Shown one piece after another: positions 154-51,790 of a stretch of 53,283 bases of DNA. The stretch lies in the NCBI GenBank assembly GCA_009841255.1, contig VXMD01000031.1, positions 50,975-104,257 of the forward strand. Reading direction: 5' to 3'. A program made the position numbers and the translations under genes. Source of the stretch: Candidatus Poribacteria bacterium. Its GTDB lineage: Bacteria > Poribacteria > WGA-4E > WGA-3G. The notes under the pieces were generated by a model, which was given only the letters and a program-made list of their open reading frames with translations, had not been told where the DNA came from and ran no database searches. Position 1 is the stretch's first letter. The number at the start of each line of letters is the position of its first letter.

Positions 154-1347
154 TTACCTTTGCGCTTGGCGAATCGTTAAAAGAACTAATTCCGCCGTGC
201 GTTCAGCGGCACCGGCGGTACCGAGTTGCGCATGTACGCTTTGGAGTGCTTCCCGTTGTGTCTCCCGTTTCTGTGGATTTTGTAGGAAATCAAGGGTCAA
301 TTCCGTCAAAGCAGTCGGGGTCAGTTCTGTCTGTAGGAGCTCTGGAACAATGTCGCGTCCTGCGATAAGGTTAGGAAGTCCGCTCCGTTCCAAAGGTGTC
401 AACGCCTTGACGATGTGCCAGTTAAACGATGCGGTCCGAAAAACGATAATCATCGGCGTACCAATGCATGCCGCCTCAAGCGTCGCTGTGCCCGAGGTAA
501 CCAGCAACAGAGTCGATGCTCGCATCGCCGGATAAGTTGCGTCTTCCACAATTTTTATCGACGGAATTTGTATGCCTGACAGATTTTGTTCCTGTTGACA
601 CTTCGCAATGAGTTCGTGTGAAATTCCGGGTGCTAACGGAAGGAGCCACTGGGCGTTCGGGTAGACCTGGGCGATGTTCGCCGCCGCATTTAGCATGACC
701 GGCAAAATGTGTCGGATTTCGGAACGGCGACTCCCCGGCATCAATCCGATGACAGGCGTATTCTCATCGTCTGTAGGAGGGGTTTCTAACCCTGACCCCT
801 TTAGATTGAGATGCTCGCGTGCGGCTCGCGTGCTGAGGGGTGTCTGGGCAAAATCAACAAGCGGGTGTCCGACAAATTCGGCGTTCGCACCCGCGTTTCG
901 GTAAAATTCTGCTTCAAACGGGAAGATTGCGGCAACAACGTTTGCCCATTTTGCCAACTTCCGTGCCCGTTTCGCGCGCCACGCCCACGCTTTCGGCGGA
1001 ATGTAATACACGACCGGGACACCGTGCTTCTGGGCAAACTTCGCTAACGGCATGTTAAACTCCGCAAAGTCCACGAGCAGAAGAACATCGGGGCGTTCCT
1101 CACGGATACGTCGTTTCAGACGCGCCTGTTTCCGAAGGAACATCGGTAGGACAGTGATAACATCAGCGAACCCCATGACCGCCGAATCTCGTATATGAAA
1201 ATCGAGGGACACGGATGACTTTTCCATCCAATCGCCGCCCATGCCGAAGAGTGTTATATCGGGACAAAGTGCCGTGAGTCGGCGTGCAACATGAGAAGCG
1301 TGCAAGTCACCAGAGGGTTCTCCAGCAACAATCATAATACTCGGCAC
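154..1347 (-). CDS. lpxB: Lipid-A-disaccharide synthase
   Basis: Peripheral membrane glycosyltransferase (GT19) that joins UDP-2,3-diacylglucosamine to lipid X to make the lipid A disaccharide. Visible motifs are the N-terminal GEPSGDLHA, the central GHPLVD, LPGSRRSEI and the C-terminal VTSGTATLEA. The open frame runs up to a TTG at 1377, but the GTG at 1347 has GGAG six bases upstream and gives 397 residues, close to the family length; an ATG at 1335 is the other option. It lies downstream of argC with 58 bases between them and probably shares its promoter. Its last codons sit inside a diverged 105-bp tandem duplication. The product implies an outer membrane containing lipid A. Confidence 0.93.
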   Translation of the reverse strand: MPSIMIVAGEPSGDLHASHVARRLTALCPDITLFGMGGDWMEKSSVSLDFHIRDSAVMGFADVITVLPMFLRKQARLKRRIREERPDVLLLVDFAEFNMPLAKFAQKHGVPVVYYIPPKAWAWRAKRARKLAKWANVVAAIFPFEAEFYRNAGANAEFVGHPLVDFAQTPLSTRAAREHLNLKGSGLETPPTDDENTPVIGLMPGSRRSEIRHILPVMLNAAANIAQVYPNAQWLLPLAPGISHELIAKCQQEQNLSGIQIPSIKIVEDATYPAMRASTLLLVTSGTATLEAACIGTPMIIVFRTASFNWHIVKALTPLERSGLPNLIAGRDIVPELLQTELTPTALTELTLDFLQNPQKRETQREALQSVHAQLGTAGAAERTAELVLLTIRQAQR

Positions 1348-1405
1348 AAGAGTCTCCAAGTCGTTGTGAATTGACAATAGTTGTCAGAGCGTTCGCTATG
1401 CTCAC

Positions 1406-4472: not shown

Positions 4473-4542
4473 ATTCAAACCCTGTTTTGACTTGCATTGG
4501 CGAAGTTTTTTAACTCGGTATTGTTCCAATAAGGAGAAGAAA

Positions 4543-5322
4543 ATGCGTTTTAGATATCTATCTCTTTTTCGATGTAGTCAAATTTCTGAAAAAGCAAGAC
4601 TTGCGTTTAAAATTGTTGTGCCTTTGTTGTGCCTCAGTATAGCAATACAGGCATCGGCAGTCCTGTTGTTTCATGATGACTTTGAGAAGGATGAGATCGG
4701 AGCAGAACCCGGTAAATGGGAGGTCGGACACGACGGGAGCACAACTGCAGAAGTTGTTGCCGATCCGAAAAAAGCCAGTAATAAAGTCTTATTAACTGCT
4801 GACAAGGCATCTAATCAATCACGGCATGATGTCGGTGGTTCTATTTATGTCGTCGGGGATGCAGGCTGGGACGATTACGTCGCTGAATGGGATATGATGT
4901 TCCCTGATGACTTCTATATGGGGGTCGTCTTCCGTTTTCAGGGCGGCGAGAAGTTTTATTTAAGTGATAGACGGCAAGGTGGCAGAGAGTACCACTTTTA
5001 CAAACGCCAAGGCGGTTGGGGAAAGATCAAAGATGGGATGGTACAAAACAAACCCGAAATCTGGTATCGTGCGCAACTAATTCTCGCCGGTGATGAATTC
5101 ACGTTCAAGTTAAAGGAACGAAAGGATAAGACTCCGTTTGACAAAGTGGATCCAGCGACGGAAGGGAAAGACGGAAACTTTAAAACAGGGAAATTCGGCA
5201 ACTACGGACTTGTCTATATTGATAACATCTTTATCGGTGATGCCGTTGAGGACTTGGTTTTACCTGTTGAGCCACAGGACAAGTTAAGCACAACGTGGGG
5301 CATTATTAAAGCCTCTTATTAA
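4543..5322 (+). CDS. Secreted jelly-roll (LamG/DUF1080-like) protein with TTWG..K tail
   Basis: A 259-residue exported protein. The ATG at 4543 follows AAGGAG at ideal spacing; the frame opens earlier at 4492 without a site. A hydrophobic segment at residues 21-39 (ending IQASA) is a likely signal peptide. The body starts LLFHDDFEKDEIG and contains WDDYVAEWDMMF and GLVYIDNIFIGD, the pattern of concanavalin-like glycan-binding or 3-keto-disaccharide hydrolase-like folds. No catalytic site is recognised. It ends KLSTTWGIIKASY, a tail shared with the proteins at 17852 and 32489 although the bodies are unrelated. Confidence 0.75.
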   Translation: MRFRYLSLFRCSQISEKARLAFKIVVPLLCLSIAIQASAVLLFHDDFEKDEIGAEPGKWEVGHDGSTTAEVVADPKKASNKVLLTADKASNQSRHDVGGSIYVVGDAGWDDYVAEWDMMFPDDFYMGVVFRFQGGEKFYLSDRRQGGREYHFYKRQGGWGKIKDGMVQNKPEIWYRAQLILAGDEFTFKLKERKDKTPFDKVDPATEGKDGNFKTGKFGNYGLVYIDNIFIGDAVEDLVLPVEPQDKLSTTWGIIKASY

Positions 5323-5669: not shown

Positions 5670-6959
5670 ATGGCAACCTATATTGCACACGGTGGAAAAG
5701 ACACCGTCATCACAACCGAAGAGAAACGCGCATTCCTACACGAGGCACTCCTCAAGTTAGGCGGGATCCCTAAAAAGATATTGGTAATCCCGCCGGATAT
5801 AACACGCCTCCATTCAAACGCCGGCGAACTCACCCAACTCCTCTACGAATTATGGGATACTGCCAACGGCACCACCTTCGATATCCTCCCCGCTATCGGC
5901 ACGCATGCCCCGATGACCGAACCGCAAATTGCTGAGATGTACGGAGATCTGCCCAAAGCCACCTATCATGTCCATCACTGGCGGACCGGACTCCACCACT
6001 TCGGTGAAGTCCCATCGGAGTTCGTGCAGGAGGTTTCGGGTGGCAAACTCGATTATAGCATCCCTGTCGCCGTGAACCGCCGTCTTGTAGGGGCTGGGTT
6101 ACCCAGCCCCTACGAGCTCATTATCTCCGTTGGACAGGTAATTCCGCACGAGGTAATCGGTATCGCCAACGGATTTAAAAACATCCTCGTCGGTGCGGGG
6201 GGTGTTGAGATGATTAACAAATCTCATTTCCTCGGTGCTGTAGACGGCATGGAACGGCTCATGGGACGCACGGATACCTCCGTCAGAAGGGTCCTGAATT
6301 ACGCACACGCACACTACCTGAAATCACTCGGTATTGTGTATGTTATGAGCGTCATGGACGCAGACGCATCCGGTGAGCGTGTAATGCGTGGTCTTTATGT
6401 CGGAGATGACGCACACACCTTTGAAACTGCTGCCGAGTTGAGCAGAGCCGTCAATATGACCTTCTTAGACGAACCGTTATCAAAAGTGGTCGTCTACTTG
6501 GATCCGAGGGAGTTCAAAAGCACGTGGCTCGGCAACAAAGCGATCTATCGTACACGAATGGCGATGGCAGACGATGGCGAATTGATTATCATCGCACCCG
6601 GACTCCGTGAGTTCGGCGAGGACGCCGAAATCGACCGGCTTATCCGAAAGTATGGCTATCGCGGCACCCCTGCGACGCTCAACGCCGTCTCAGAAAATCC
6701 TGAGTTGCAAGAGAACCTCTCCGCCGCTGCCCACTTGATTCACGGCAGCACCGAGGGACGTTTCAAGGTCACCTATGCCACAGAACACCTCACCCAAGCC
6801 GAGATTGAACCCGTGGGTTACCAATGGGCACCTGTGGACGAAGTGCTTGCCGAATACAATCCCGCAATGCTTGCCGATGGTTTCAATGACGGTGGTTTCT
6901 TCTACATCAGCGAACCCGGACAGGGTTTATGGTCATTGCGATCGCGATTTAATGAGTAG
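5670..6959 (+). CDS. larA: LarA-like nickel-pincer racemase/epimerase
   Basis: A 429-residue cytoplasmic enzyme of the lactate racemase superfamily, which uses a nickel pincer nucleotide to racemise or epimerise 2-hydroxy acids. Conserved residues are visible: PPDITRLHS (43-48), HVHHW (100-104), PHEVIG with His160, GFKN with Lys170 (the residue position that carries the cofactor) and SHFLG with His186. Start ATG follows CCGCAAGGA. Odd feature: codons 140-148 (V-G-A-G-L-P-S-P-Y) are exactly a 27-bp perfect palindrome of the dispersed family, in frame, at a loop between VNRRL and ELIISVG. The superfamily is broad, so lactate as substrate is unproven; no larB/C/E genes are in the window. Confidence 0.85.
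   Translation: MATYIAHGGKDTVITTEEKRAFLHEALLKLGGIPKKILVIPPDITRLHSNAGELTQLLYELWDTANGTTFDILPAIGTHAPMTEPQIAEMYGDLPKATYHVHHWRTGLHHFGEVPSEFVQEVSGGKLDYSIPVAVNRRLVGAGLPSPYELIISVGQVIPHEVIGIANGFKNILVGAGGVEMINKSHFLGAVDGMERLMGRTDTSVRRVLNYAHAHYLKSLGIVYVMSVMDADASGERVMRGLYVGDDAHTFETAAELSRAVNMTFLDEPLSKVVVYLDPREFKSTWLGNKAIYRTRMAMADDGELIIIAPGLREFGEDAEIDRLIRKYGYRGTPATLNAVSENPELQENLSAAAHLIHGSTEGRFKVTYATEHLTQAEIEPVGYQWAPVDEVLAEYNPAMLADGFNDGGFFYISEPGQGLWSLRSRFNE
6087..6113 (+). repeat. 27-bp palindrome inserted in frame in larA
   Basis: GTAGGGGCTGGGT and ACCCAGCCCCTAC are perfect 13-base arms around one T. The nine codons it supplies keep the larA frame open. The core matches the intergenic element at 51758. Confidence 0.9.
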
Positions 6960-17523: not shown

Positions 17524-17851
17524 CTGCTGAACTCCAGTGCTATTGACATAGTGGTATATCCATTGAGTGAATTTCATTTTTCCTCTTAAACCTTGCTTGT
17601 TCATGTTGTATCGTTCATTATAAAATCCACTACAAACTGTCTAAGTGATGCCTTCACTTCATTATTAATGAGTTGTTATGAGGATACCAGTTTTAGACAC
17701 ATAAGTCAATCAAAAATCAGTTTGATTTTTTTCTTGACAATCTTCGTTAAATTTGTCATTATGGCGACAATCGAAATGCGATAAACACGATCCAGAGGGT
17801 ATCCGTTAATTTTCCACATCGTATCACTGAACTGGACAAATGGAGGCTGTC
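17524..17851. other. Divergent intergenic region
   Basis: No gene seen. It separates the lipoprotein (-) and LamG (+) genes and holds one clear sigma-70-type promoter for the latter at 17734-17762. The region is AT-rich with runs of T near 17725-17735. Confidence 0.5.
17734..17762 (+). promoter_or_regulatory. Sigma-70-type promoter for the LamG gene
   Basis: TTGACA (17734-17739), 17-base spacer, CATTAT (17757-17762), 90 bases before the start codon. Confidence 0.6.
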
Positions 17852-18655
17852 ATGAAACCGAAACGTTTAAATTGGTGGGCATTTCGAACCGGTTTTGCCC
17901 TCCTCTGTACTTTCATCTTAATTATTGGGGTGGAAGCTCAAGTTGTTACGGACGGCTTAGTGAGTTATTACACGCTTGACAAAAACGACATCGTCGGCGA
18001 TACCGTTAAAGATCTCATTGGCGGCAAGGATGGAACAATCGTCGGTGAGCCGGAGTCCATCGAAGGTCATCTCGGAGACGCACTCAATTTTGGCGGAAAA
18101 CCGGATTGTGTGGAGTTGCCGATCATTTTCAATATCGGAGAGAAACCAGCGTCGTATGAAGCGTGGTTTTTGAAAACCCCTAACAGTCGCATCGGTTGGC
18201 AATATATCCTGACAAACAAAACGAATTTCTTCGATCATTTCTTTCGGTTGGGCTTTAATCAGAATACCGGACAACTCCGATACTATACTGAACAAGCAAA
18301 CAACATCAGAAAAGCGTGGGTAACCGATGAGGATTACGCCGATGGCAAATGGCACCATGTAGTGGCGACGCGCGAAGGGGATAAGGCACAGGTGTATGTC
18401 GATAGCGTCCTCGTCAAAGAGGAGGAGGCAATGTCCGGCAATCTAGGCGGCGGTGAGACGAACTGGAACATCGCTCAAGATGGTAATACCGATGGGTACT
18501 TGATAGGTGCAGTGGACGAAGTGCGCATCTACAAGAAAGTACTAACCGTGGAAGAAATCAAGCAGAACTTCGAGTCACAGGGCTTAGCGGTTCAGCCTAC
18601 TGGGAAGTTGAGTCTCACCTGGGGGCGGATTAAAGCCGCGCAATCTTATCGTTAA
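17852..18655 (+). CDS. Secreted LamG-domain protein with TWG..K tail
   Basis: A 267-residue exported protein. The ATG at 17852 has GGAGG five bases upstream. An N-terminal hydrophobic stretch (about residues 12-30, ending GVEAQVV) is a signal peptide. The body is a LamG/concanavalin jelly-roll: LVSYYTLDKNDIVGDTVKDL, GGKDGTIVG, ALNFGGKPDCVELP, WHHVVATREGDKAQVYVDS and GAVDEVRIYKKVLTVEEI are the usual order of strands. Such domains bind glycans. It ends KLSLTWGRIKAAQSYR, nearly the same tail as at 5280-5319 and 32492-32530. Confidence 0.88.
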   Translation: MKPKRLNWWAFRTGFALLCTFILIIGVEAQVVTDGLVSYYTLDKNDIVGDTVKDLIGGKDGTIVGEPESIEGHLGDALNFGGKPDCVELPIIFNIGEKPASYEAWFLKTPNSRIGWQYILTNKTNFFDHFFRLGFNQNTGQLRYYTEQANNIRKAWVTDEDYADGKWHHVVATREGDKAQVYVDSVLVKEEEAMSGNLGGGETNWNIAQDGNTDGYLIGAVDEVRIYKKVLTVEEIKQNFESQGLAVQPTGKLSLTWGRIKAAQSYR

Positions 18656-32488: not shown

Positions 32489-33229
32489 TCACCATAAATG
32501 ACCTTTCAGTTGTGCCCATGTCGTCGTTAATCTGTTTGCCGCTTCAACTGATAACCCTGAACCCCCGCCAAATTTAACATCAATCTCAAATTCATGAATT
32601 GTTTCGTGCACGTCCCGTTCTCTCGGTGTTACAGGTTTCTTCCAACGGTCTTTGTTTGGCTTTCCCTTAGGGACTTTCGTCGCTTCAACGTCGGGCATCG
32701 AGTCCACAATCTTCGATACATCCCATTCAGGGATTTCGCCTACAGGAGAGAGTGTGGCAATATTAGCTGTCCGTCCAATTTCAACCCCATTCAGCCACAA
32801 TATATAAGAATCGTCATAGTCAATCCGAAACATAACTTTTTTCGCTGTAACCGCTTCAGGTGCATCGAAGTGATAGCGCGTGTAAAGTGAGCCAACTTCA
32901 CCCGATTTAATTTCTGTATTGTCATCACCATCACCGTAACCGATGCTGGTGATACCCTTCTTCCAGTTCTTATCGTCAAATTCGAGTTCAGTCCAACCCT
33001 CAACATCTTTGTCAGGAACATGGTATTTTACCTCAACACCCTCATCAAATATAACATCCTTCCCGACAGTGAGTTGAATAATAAGCGTCATATCACTACT
33101 GCTGAACCCGTCATTATAACATCCTGCGGCAAGTACATTATCTTTCGTAAAGATTTTAGGTGTATCAGCGGCATAAGCTAAGGAAGCAAACACGCAACAG
33201 AAGTATAGAAAGATAAACTGTCTAATCAT
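32489..33229 (-). CDS. Secreted galactose-binding-like protein with TTW..LK tail
   Basis: A 246-residue exported protein: MIRQFIFLYFCCVFASLAYA is a signal peptide with an AYA-A cleavage site. The body has one jelly-roll-like half (YHVPDKDVEGWTELEFDDKN-type strand order, and VMFRIDYDDSYILWLNGVEIGR), resembling carbohydrate-binding galactose-binding-like domains. It ends RLTTTWAQLKGHLW, the third example of the shared tail in this window. Flanking GH32-like genes suggest it binds the same glycan at the cell surface. RBS GGAGAAATTACC precedes the ATG. Confidence 0.78.
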   Translation of the reverse strand: MIRQFIFLYFCCVFASLAYAADTPKIFTKDNVLAAGCYNDGFSSSDMTLIIQLTVGKDVIFDEGVEVKYHVPDKDVEGWTELEFDDKNWKKGITSIGYGDGDDNTEIKSGEVGSLYTRYHFDAPEAVTAKKVMFRIDYDDSYILWLNGVEIGRTANIATLSPVGEIPEWDVSKIVDSMPDVEATKVPKGKPNKDRWKKPVTPRERDVHETIHEFEIDVKFGGGSGLSVEAANRLTTTWAQLKGHLW

Positions 33230-50135: not shown

Positions 50136-51761
50136 ATGAAAAATATTCTTGAACTTCGGAACGTTACAAAAACCTTCGGCGATCTTGTCGCCGTTGACAG
50201 TGTCGATTTTGAACTCCAAGCCGGTGAAATTCACGCGATTCTGGGTGAAAATGGCGCAGGGAAGTCCACACTGATGAATCTGATCTACGGACTTTACCAA
50301 CCCTCGGCGGGACGCATCTATGTGACGGATCGCGAGAACTGGCGACGTAGGTTCCGGGCGAAATCACCACGCGATGCGATTGCAAACGGCATCGGCATGG
50401 TACATCAGCATTTTATGCTGATTGAAAACCTCACGGTCGCCGAGAATATTGCCTTAGCTCTTGGACAACAAGCGTCCAATCCTGCAGGAAGTGCGTCTTC
50501 AAACGGTGATGACAAGCAGAGATTGGGGAAATTCCGGTTCAAGAAAGAGGACGCTATCCGTATCACCCAAGAACTCTCGGAGCGGTTCGGTCTTACTGTT
50601 GATCCAACAGCGTTGGTACGGACACTTTCCGTCGGCTTAAAACAACGCGTAGAGATCCTCAAAGCACTCGCCGTTGATGCCCGGATCCTCATCCTCGATG
50701 AACCCACCGCCGTCCTGAGCCCACAGGAGGTAGAAGGTTTCTTCACGATTCTACGCAACCTCCAAGCCGACGGTCGCGCAATTATCTTCATTAGCCACAA
50801 AATGAAAGAGGTCCTGAGCATCAGTGACCGAATTACCGTCTTAAGACGCGGCAAAAAAGTTTATCTCGGTCCAACCGGAGAACTGACGGCTCGCGAGTTG
50901 GCGCGGGAGATGATCGGAGAAGACCTCACTGACGTTGAACGCTCGGTTTCCGGTTCATACCTCGAAAACGACTCGCTAGACCGGGTCCTACACCTCTCAA
51001 ACTTAACAGTCCTCGGCAGTCGAAACGAGATCGCAGTGTCAGATGTCTCTATGGAAACCCATCGCGGTGAAATCGTGGGTATCGCCGGTGTAGATGGCAA
51101 TGGGCAGCGTGAACTCGCCGAGGCGATCATGGGGTTGCGACACAGCGACTCTGGCACAGTAAACATCTTAGGCACCGATCCGAAAGGGATCAAGGCGGTG
51201 CGTCAGCGCGGTGTCGGCTATATTCCTGAAGACAGGCAAACGACAGGGGTCATCGCCGCCTTTTCGGTTACGGAAAACCTCTTGTTGAACGTGACACACC
51301 TACAAAACCTCGCCCACTGGAACGTCCTTAACCAGAAGCGGAAAAGTGAAACGGCAGAGCAACTCATCGCTGACTACGATATCCGTCCGCCTAACCCTGA
51401 TATTCCTGCTTCCTCACTCTCCGGTGGCAATCAACAGAAAATCGTCCTCGCCCGAGAAATCTCGCTTCGACCCGACCTCCTTATCGCTGTGAACCCGACA
51501 CGCGGTTTAGATGTCAACGCCGCTCGCTATGTCCATGAGAATCTATTGGCACAGCGCGACGCAAAAAAATCTGTCCTGTTAATTTCAACGGAGTTAGACG
51601 AAGTCTTGTTGTTGAGTGATCGACTCTACGTCATGTCAAGAGGCAAACTGATCGAAGCAACGGCACAACGCAACGACATCGAAGCACTCGGATTATTAAT
51701 GACTGGAGAAACGGATACAGAGGGATATGGAAATTCACCAAAAACCATTGTGGAGCCGTAG
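50136..51761 (+). CDS. BMP-type nucleoside ABC transporter, fused ATPase
   Basis: A 541-residue ATPase with two ABC domains, as in NupA/YufO and sugar importers. Domain 1: Walker A GENGAGKST (37-45), degenerate signature LSVGLKQRV, Walker B LILDEPTAVL. Domain 2: degenerate Walker A GVDGNGQRE, and signature LSGGNQQKIVLARE. It energises uptake with the permease downstream and the BMP binding protein at 47709. Its stop codon TAG is the first part of a palindromic repeat (51758-51780), so the C-terminus may have been reset by that element. RBS CCGCAAGGA. Confidence 0.92.
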   Translation: MKNILELRNVTKTFGDLVAVDSVDFELQAGEIHAILGENGAGKSTLMNLIYGLYQPSAGRIYVTDRENWRRRFRAKSPRDAIANGIGMVHQHFMLIENLTVAENIALALGQQASNPAGSASSNGDDKQRLGKFRFKKEDAIRITQELSERFGLTVDPTALVRTLSVGLKQRVEILKALAVDARILILDEPTAVLSPQEVEGFFTILRNLQADGRAIIFISHKMKEVLSISDRITVLRRGKKVYLGPTGELTARELAREMIGEDLTDVERSVSGSYLENDSLDRVLHLSNLTVLGSRNEIAVSDVSMETHRGEIVGIAGVDGNGQRELAEAIMGLRHSDSGTVNILGTDPKGIKAVRQRGVGYIPEDRQTTGVIAAFSVTENLLLNVTHLQNLAHWNVLNQKRKSETAEQLIADYDIRPPNPDIPASSLSGGNQQKIVLAREISLRPDLLIAVNPTRGLDVNAARYVHENLLAQRDAKKSVLLISTELDEVLLLSDRLYVMSRGKLIEATAQRNDIEALGLLMTGETDTEGYGNSPKTIVEP

Positions 51762-51780
51762 GGGCTGGGGAACCCAGCCC
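51758..51780 (+). repeat. GTAGGGGCTGGG palindrome at the ATPase 3' end
   Basis: GGGCTGGG and CCCAGCCC arms around GAA, preceded by GTAG. The TAG stop of the ATPase (51759-51761) is inside the element. It matches the core of the copy in larA (6087-6113) and fills most of the gap to the permease gene. Confidence 0.8.
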
Positions 51781-51790
51781 GTATAGAACG

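Follow-up and report, generated by a model that had tools for sequence, protein, structure and literature searches.

A GTAG-tagged REP palindrome lodged in frame in a LarA-like enzyme gene of Candidatus Poribacteria, at a site probably hit repeatedly within the genus

We analysed a stretch of 53,283 nt from the genome of a sponge-associated Candidatus Poribacteria bacterium (contig VXMD01000031.1, assembly GCA_009841255.1), referred to as the window, which carries the gene of a LarA-like nickel-pincer nucleotide (NPN) enzyme, here called larA, and within that gene a perfect 27-bp palindrome, GTAGGGGCTGGGTTACCCAGCCCCTAC, with 13-nt arms around one central T. When the whole window was searched this was the only perfect palindrome with arms of at least 10 nt and a loop of at most 12, and 100 dinucleotide shuffles gave 0 matches. 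The palindrome search and the reading of the open reading frame (ORF) at 5670-6959 bear out what an earlier note on this DNA had described, namely 13-base arms and nine in-frame codons (140-148, VGAGLPSPY). The palindrome is built as GTAG, an 8-nt arm, a 3-nt loop, a second 8-nt arm and CTAC, and as RNA it folds into a hairpin of -22.8 kcal/mol (z -3.8). It is a GTAG-tagged repetitive extragenic palindromic (REP) element, of the double-foot form found with subclass 2.4 of the TnpA_REP transposases, also called REP-associated tyrosine transposases (RAYTs). The features concerned are the following.

5670-6959, plus strand: LarA-like NPN enzyme, putative hexonate epimerase, 429 aa (Pfam Lar_N, NF052594, fold match)
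6087-6113, plus strand: double-foot GTAG REP element, 27-bp perfect palindrome, codons 140-148 (palindrome search, shuffles, RNA folding)
6087-6090, plus strand: 5' foot GTAG, of which GTA is the native V codon of the empty alleles
6091-6098, plus strand: left arm GGGCTGGG
6099-6101, plus strand: 3-nt loop TTA
6102-6109, plus strand: right arm CCCAGCCC
6110-6113, plus strand: 3' foot CTAC, of which TAC is the native Y codon; the NTAC foot is well conserved in the REP family of this copy (TGGG)
51758-51784, plus strand: second copy of the same REP family, GTAGGGGCTGGGGAACCCAGCCCGTAT, with 3' end GTAT
50136-51761, plus strand: ABC transporter ATPase ORF, with its stop codon inside the second REP copy

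Alignment with the orthologues of relatives (G000 being the genome of the window, the other G-numbers related genomes and the L-numbers loci) showed, as had been anticipated, that the insert is absent from most of them: native codons, LV-E[G/R]x-YELI or a close variant, are found in 25 of 35 same-genus orthologues, and the native form also occurs in a wider Poribacteria set. In the other 10 a palindromic insert, of one of two types, sits at these codons. The TGGG type is present in G000, G011, G031 and G045 and, slightly eroded, in G015 and G017, while the GAAACCGGG type is present in G005 and, shorter or eroded, in G014, G003 and G038. Since the empty alleles of relatives read LV-EGx-YELI, the change amounts to a replacement of EGx by GAGLPSP between the native V140 and Y148, giving LV-GAGLPSP-YELI with a net gain of four codons; the element is thus lodged in frame as first proposed, but not as a simple addition of nine codons. 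The native site already has GTAG...TAC, matching both feet of the element. The same residues written in non-palindromic codons were seen only as decay, in G017 (AGT, TAT and TCA codons), G014, G003 and G038, which keep most residues while the palindrome erodes.

When the insert columns were left out of the larA tree, the carriers required seven presence changes; their grouping as one clade was rejected (p-AU, approximately unbiased test, 1.2e-5), as was that of the TGGG carriers alone (6e-33). The four intact TGGG carriers agree at all 9 insert codons and vary at 46 of 80 flank codons. Beside the insert, carriers are no more similar than over the whole gene, even within 30 nt either way (ratio 1.0), and a test for long conversion tracts spreading a single larA allele gave no support. 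As judged from these alignments, repeated insertion at the same larA codon would be the simplest reading, with conversion tracts shorter than about 30 nt remaining as a rival. A second GTAG REP family (GTAGGTGCGGTT..., GTAGGTGCGGTTTCC...), which flanks other RAYTs, lies in frame near the larA C-terminus of G032 and G033, where it adds about 11-16 residues (L104, L106, L145, L146), and is shortened in G034 (L105).

The host protein is matched by Pfam Lar_N and scores 579 bits against NCBIfam NF052594 (NPN-dependent putative hexonate epimerase; cut-off 500) and 34 bits, far lower, against lactate racemase LarA. Its predicted model (mean predicted local distance difference test score, pLDDT, 92) matches 4nar and solved LarA structures. 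In this model the turn that links strands 131-136 and 150-156 is made up of residues 140-149, has a pLDDT of about 80, the lowest mean of any 10-residue block, and directly precedes the invariant S153, G155, Q156 and H160. The peptide stretch at the insert reads VNRRLVGAGLPSPYELI. The predicted position fits a tolerated loop, in agreement with the suggestion made beforehand that the enzyme may accept an inserted loop.

The element belongs to a dispersed, multicopy family. In the whole G000 genome there are 26 matches to GTAGGGGCTGGG..CCCAGCCC, corresponding to 22 sites of which four were counted on both strands, together with many sibling hairpins with other arms. The copy at 51758, earlier described as intergenic, is real but not purely intergenic, because the ABC ATPase ORF takes its TAG stop codon from the GTAG of this copy, whose 3' end lies 6 nt before the start of a permease gene. 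Genome-wide coding statistics were drawn from fetched loci. The REP superfamily pattern gave 92 matches and its reversed control 0. In a set of 92 distinct copies that fit GTAGGGGCNNGGNNNCCNNGCCC, read from fetched loci, the NN pairs were complementary in 83; the set includes orthologous copies, so that not all are independent. The family consensus is GTAGGGGCNNGGTNNCCNNGCCC, and in the larA subfamily (TGGG) NN is TG/CA. Most copies of this subfamily have a second foot, NTAC, directly after the hairpin at the 3' end; the larA copy has CTAC there, and others have GTAC, TTAC or GTAT. As in subclass 2.4, GTAG sits directly at the hairpin foot and the base of the stem consists of three consecutive G-C pairs (GTAG-GGG...CCC; PMC6006769). 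No target-site duplication, of the kind made by miniature inverted-repeat transposable elements, was found at the empty/filled pairs, where target bases are lost instead. In G011 most TGGG copies share both flanks, CCACTC...GGTCAA or the complement (L381-L405), so that the REP there rides inside a larger multicopy repeat; for that reason the high TGGG count of this genome was dropped as a sign of activity.

Y1 transposases are present in 36 of 37 congeners, and a number of RAYT types have GTAG hairpins of their own on their flanks. When one RAYT was used as query, members of its subfamily turned up in 13 of the 37 genomes, among them G000, whose RAYT lies at C20:8689-9264. For most of these RAYTs, GTAGGGGC hairpins occur ahead of the gene, behind it in inverted orientation and, in frame, inside the ORF past the HuH motif, and such hairpins lie on both sides of RAYTs in G000, G048, G036, G017 and others. 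In G020 (L358), a related genome from a different family, it is copies of the TGGG subfamily itself that lie on both sides of a RAYT. In-frame REPs between the HuH and Y motifs are present in nearly all RAYTs of this kind that were read; copies of a gene's own REP family right after MPNHxHGI (HuH) recur very regularly across several genera and REP types (L329-L338, L343, L354-L373). Assignment to subclass 2.4 was made from these internal in-frame REPs and the REP type rather than from a phylogeny with the published members. Where the RAYT is present the median is 52 superfamily matches per genome, against 20 where it is lacking (p 1e-4, or 3e-4 when G011 is left out), with G037, whose RAYT match reached 40% identity only, scored as absent in this test. 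A homologue on a Chloroflexota plasmid (L352) is flanked by GTAGGGGCGGAT hairpins and has no internal REP. A separate REPtron comprises another RAYT type of about 214 aa with GTAGGCACGCTCCGCGTGCC hairpins on both sides (L101, L308), and at L099 (about 900-1470) tandem repeats adjoining a RAYT gene are read through as a recurring peptide that resembles ESEFPPTEEASGIG and has runs of N.

The search for further in-frame copies, which the earlier note had proposed, found them in purH, gyrB/parE, ispH, hyuA and other genes. They fall within Pfam domain matches in purH, ispH, hyuA (GAGG subfamily), a DUF4340 protein and a C25 propeptide protein (GAGG subfamily), and between domains in gyrB/parE, a sigma-54 regulator and an S8/FG-GAP protein; at six such sites most of the relatives whose orthologues were read are without the element. 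The net changes with respect to the empty alleles are +15 nt in the S8 gene, +21 in purH, +18 in the sigma-54 regulator, +18 in gyrB/parE, +15 in hyuA and +12 in larA. In coding-sequence (CDS) events with a clean gap a 27-nt element thus replaces 6-15 nt of target without duplication, the exact replaced lengths being alignment-dependent; no length is given for ispH, where the region is variable in length and holds two elements. Microhomology at both feet was considered as a rule for the replaced sites and set aside, as by eye it holds for larA only and partly for gyrB/parE. In the S8 gene G000 and G011 hold identical elements at an identical position, and the allele of G005, a near relative of G011, is empty. 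MurJ of G011 also has a REP copy, and its lpxB has one where the window has none:

154-1377, minus strand: lpxB, REP-free allele; the G011 orthologue has an in-frame copy of the same family, QELCRGWVTQPLELPS

Taken together, we consider it probable that the larA palindrome is a GTAG REP copy, spread with RAYT/TnpA_REP subclass 2.4, which was placed in an enzyme turn where it replaced EGx by GAGLPSP, and that this site has been hit repeatedly within the genus. The probable mover would be a TnpA_REP single-strand transposase of subclass 2.4, with which the family appears to spread. We infer that a single-stranded DNA hairpin was joined or annealed at an exposed single-stranded target with loss of 6-15 nt, both the role of the RAYT and the way in which target bases are lost forming part of this inference. 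In larA the copy would have entered the turn that leads into the region with the conserved S-G-Q and the catalytic His, turning three codons (EGx) into seven (GAGLPSP); the filled allele would have survived because the loop tolerates the insert and the gain in length is divisible by three, and the same site would have been struck again in other members of the genus. Several observations weigh against this reading. REP transposition was not observed here, and the loss of target bases differs from what the IS200/IS605 model predicts. No G000 RAYT seen bears the flanking TGGG subfamily, only sibling stem variants; the presence of the RAYT does not predict that of the larA insert (5/10 vs 7/24, p 0.27); and the S8 genes of G000 and G011 share an odd 3' end, TCA, hinting at common descent or at a very short conversion tract. 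A wider claim, that REPs replace a short target stretch and return to the same codon, so that separate lineages gain the same peptide in parallel as transposon-driven convergent protein loops, is put forward tentatively and may well not hold.

It is rather unlikely, in our estimate, that the insert arose only once or twice and that gene conversion over very short tracts, through homologous recombination of larA alleles, then carried it among co-resident Poribacteria. The carriers are scattered, the insert is identical in four of them, and the S8 elements of G000 and G011 agree in their exact junction and their TCA end although the flanks differ at 130 of 509 sites; of the cases compared, S8 speaks most strongly for rare transfers of a filled allele. 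Against this, the G011 S8 flanks follow those of its relative G005 (36 of 509 differences) to within about 15 nt of the element, the larA carriers show no excess similarity next to the insert even at 30 nt either way, and two different palindromes, of the TGGG and GAAACCGGG types, occupy the larA site. The loss of 6-15 nt of native sequence without duplication in each clean-gap CDS event, together with the match of both feet to the native GTAG...TAC of larA, would suit short-patch double illegitimate recombination, in which a single-stranded REP fragment anneals at microhomologies and replaces a few bases with no transposase involved. We regard this as unlikely, however, as the element has exact and uniform ends (GTAG and usually NTAC), which would be expected if an enzyme acts on a defined substrate, the other replaced sites do not match both feet, and copy number tracks RAYT presence. 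A functional hairpin kept by selection within the gene, as an mRNA pause, terminator or regulator, would agree with the stable RNA fold, but 25 of 35 congeners lack it and several carriers show its decay, at loop and at synonymous positions, making this account very improbable. That the loop is an ordinary variable one and the palindrome a coincidence of codon choice can draw on the one native residue (x in EGx) that varies among orthologues; it is refuted for practical purposes by the 27-mer or its core at 22 genome sites inside and outside genes, the 0 matches in shuffles and the lack of the stretch in most relatives.

Elsewhere in the window three otherwise different secreted-looking proteins (4492-5322, 17840-18655 and 32489-33229) have similar ends, KLSTTWGIIKASY, KLSLTWGRIKAAQSYR and RLTTTWAQLKGHLW, a shared motif which is perhaps a C-terminal sorting signal.

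Within the genus there are many close genomes in which alleles of essential genes, some filled and some empty, can be compared at one nucleotide, and the matching transposase is present as well. Such allele pairs together with the transposase make the REP integration step (clean insertion or replacement, target choice and the role of the feet) readable from sequence. They would also present a case of selfish DNA that has supplied separate lineages with one and the same peptide in an enzyme loop. As far as the literature was searched, the Poribacteria REP family, the repeated replacement of the same codons in congeners and the set of empty/filled pairs are new. In-frame GTAG REPs in genes (PMC3733652) and double-foot REPs with REPs in RAYT genes (PMC6006769) are known already.

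Double-foot REPs and in-frame REPs in transposase genes have been published for TnpA_REP subclass 2.4 (Quentin et al. 2018, PMC6006769), whose long and double-foot REP architecture is common to the Poribacteria family; there the in-frame copies lie in the transposase genes, whereas here they also lie in genes of metabolism and housekeeping, with one codon recurring as the site and native codons replaced. The REPtron Sm of Stenotrophomonas maltophilia (PMC8266576) likewise has GTAG followed by a perfect 8-3-8 hairpin, but its RAYT is of subclass 2.5, its arm sequence is another one and it has been biochemically tested, the Poribacteria family being known from sequence. According to PMC3733652, GTAG and CGTC REPs inside ORFs code for extra residues in many unrelated proteins, their GTAG ends often give a TAG stop as in the copy at 51758, and recB of Xanthomonas campestris and X. 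oryzae provides a same-site precedent; Poribacteria are not reported there, and the portions consulted contain neither empty-site evidence that codons were replaced nor a phylogenetic test for recurrent insertion. The likeness to Rickettsia palindromic elements (RPEs) drawn in the earlier note holds in effect, both being dispersed palindromes in frame in unrelated genes, but not in membership: the short RPEs have CGTC ends and no known transposase (PMC3733652), while the palindrome described here has a GTAG tag and cognate RAYTs and is therefore not an RPE.
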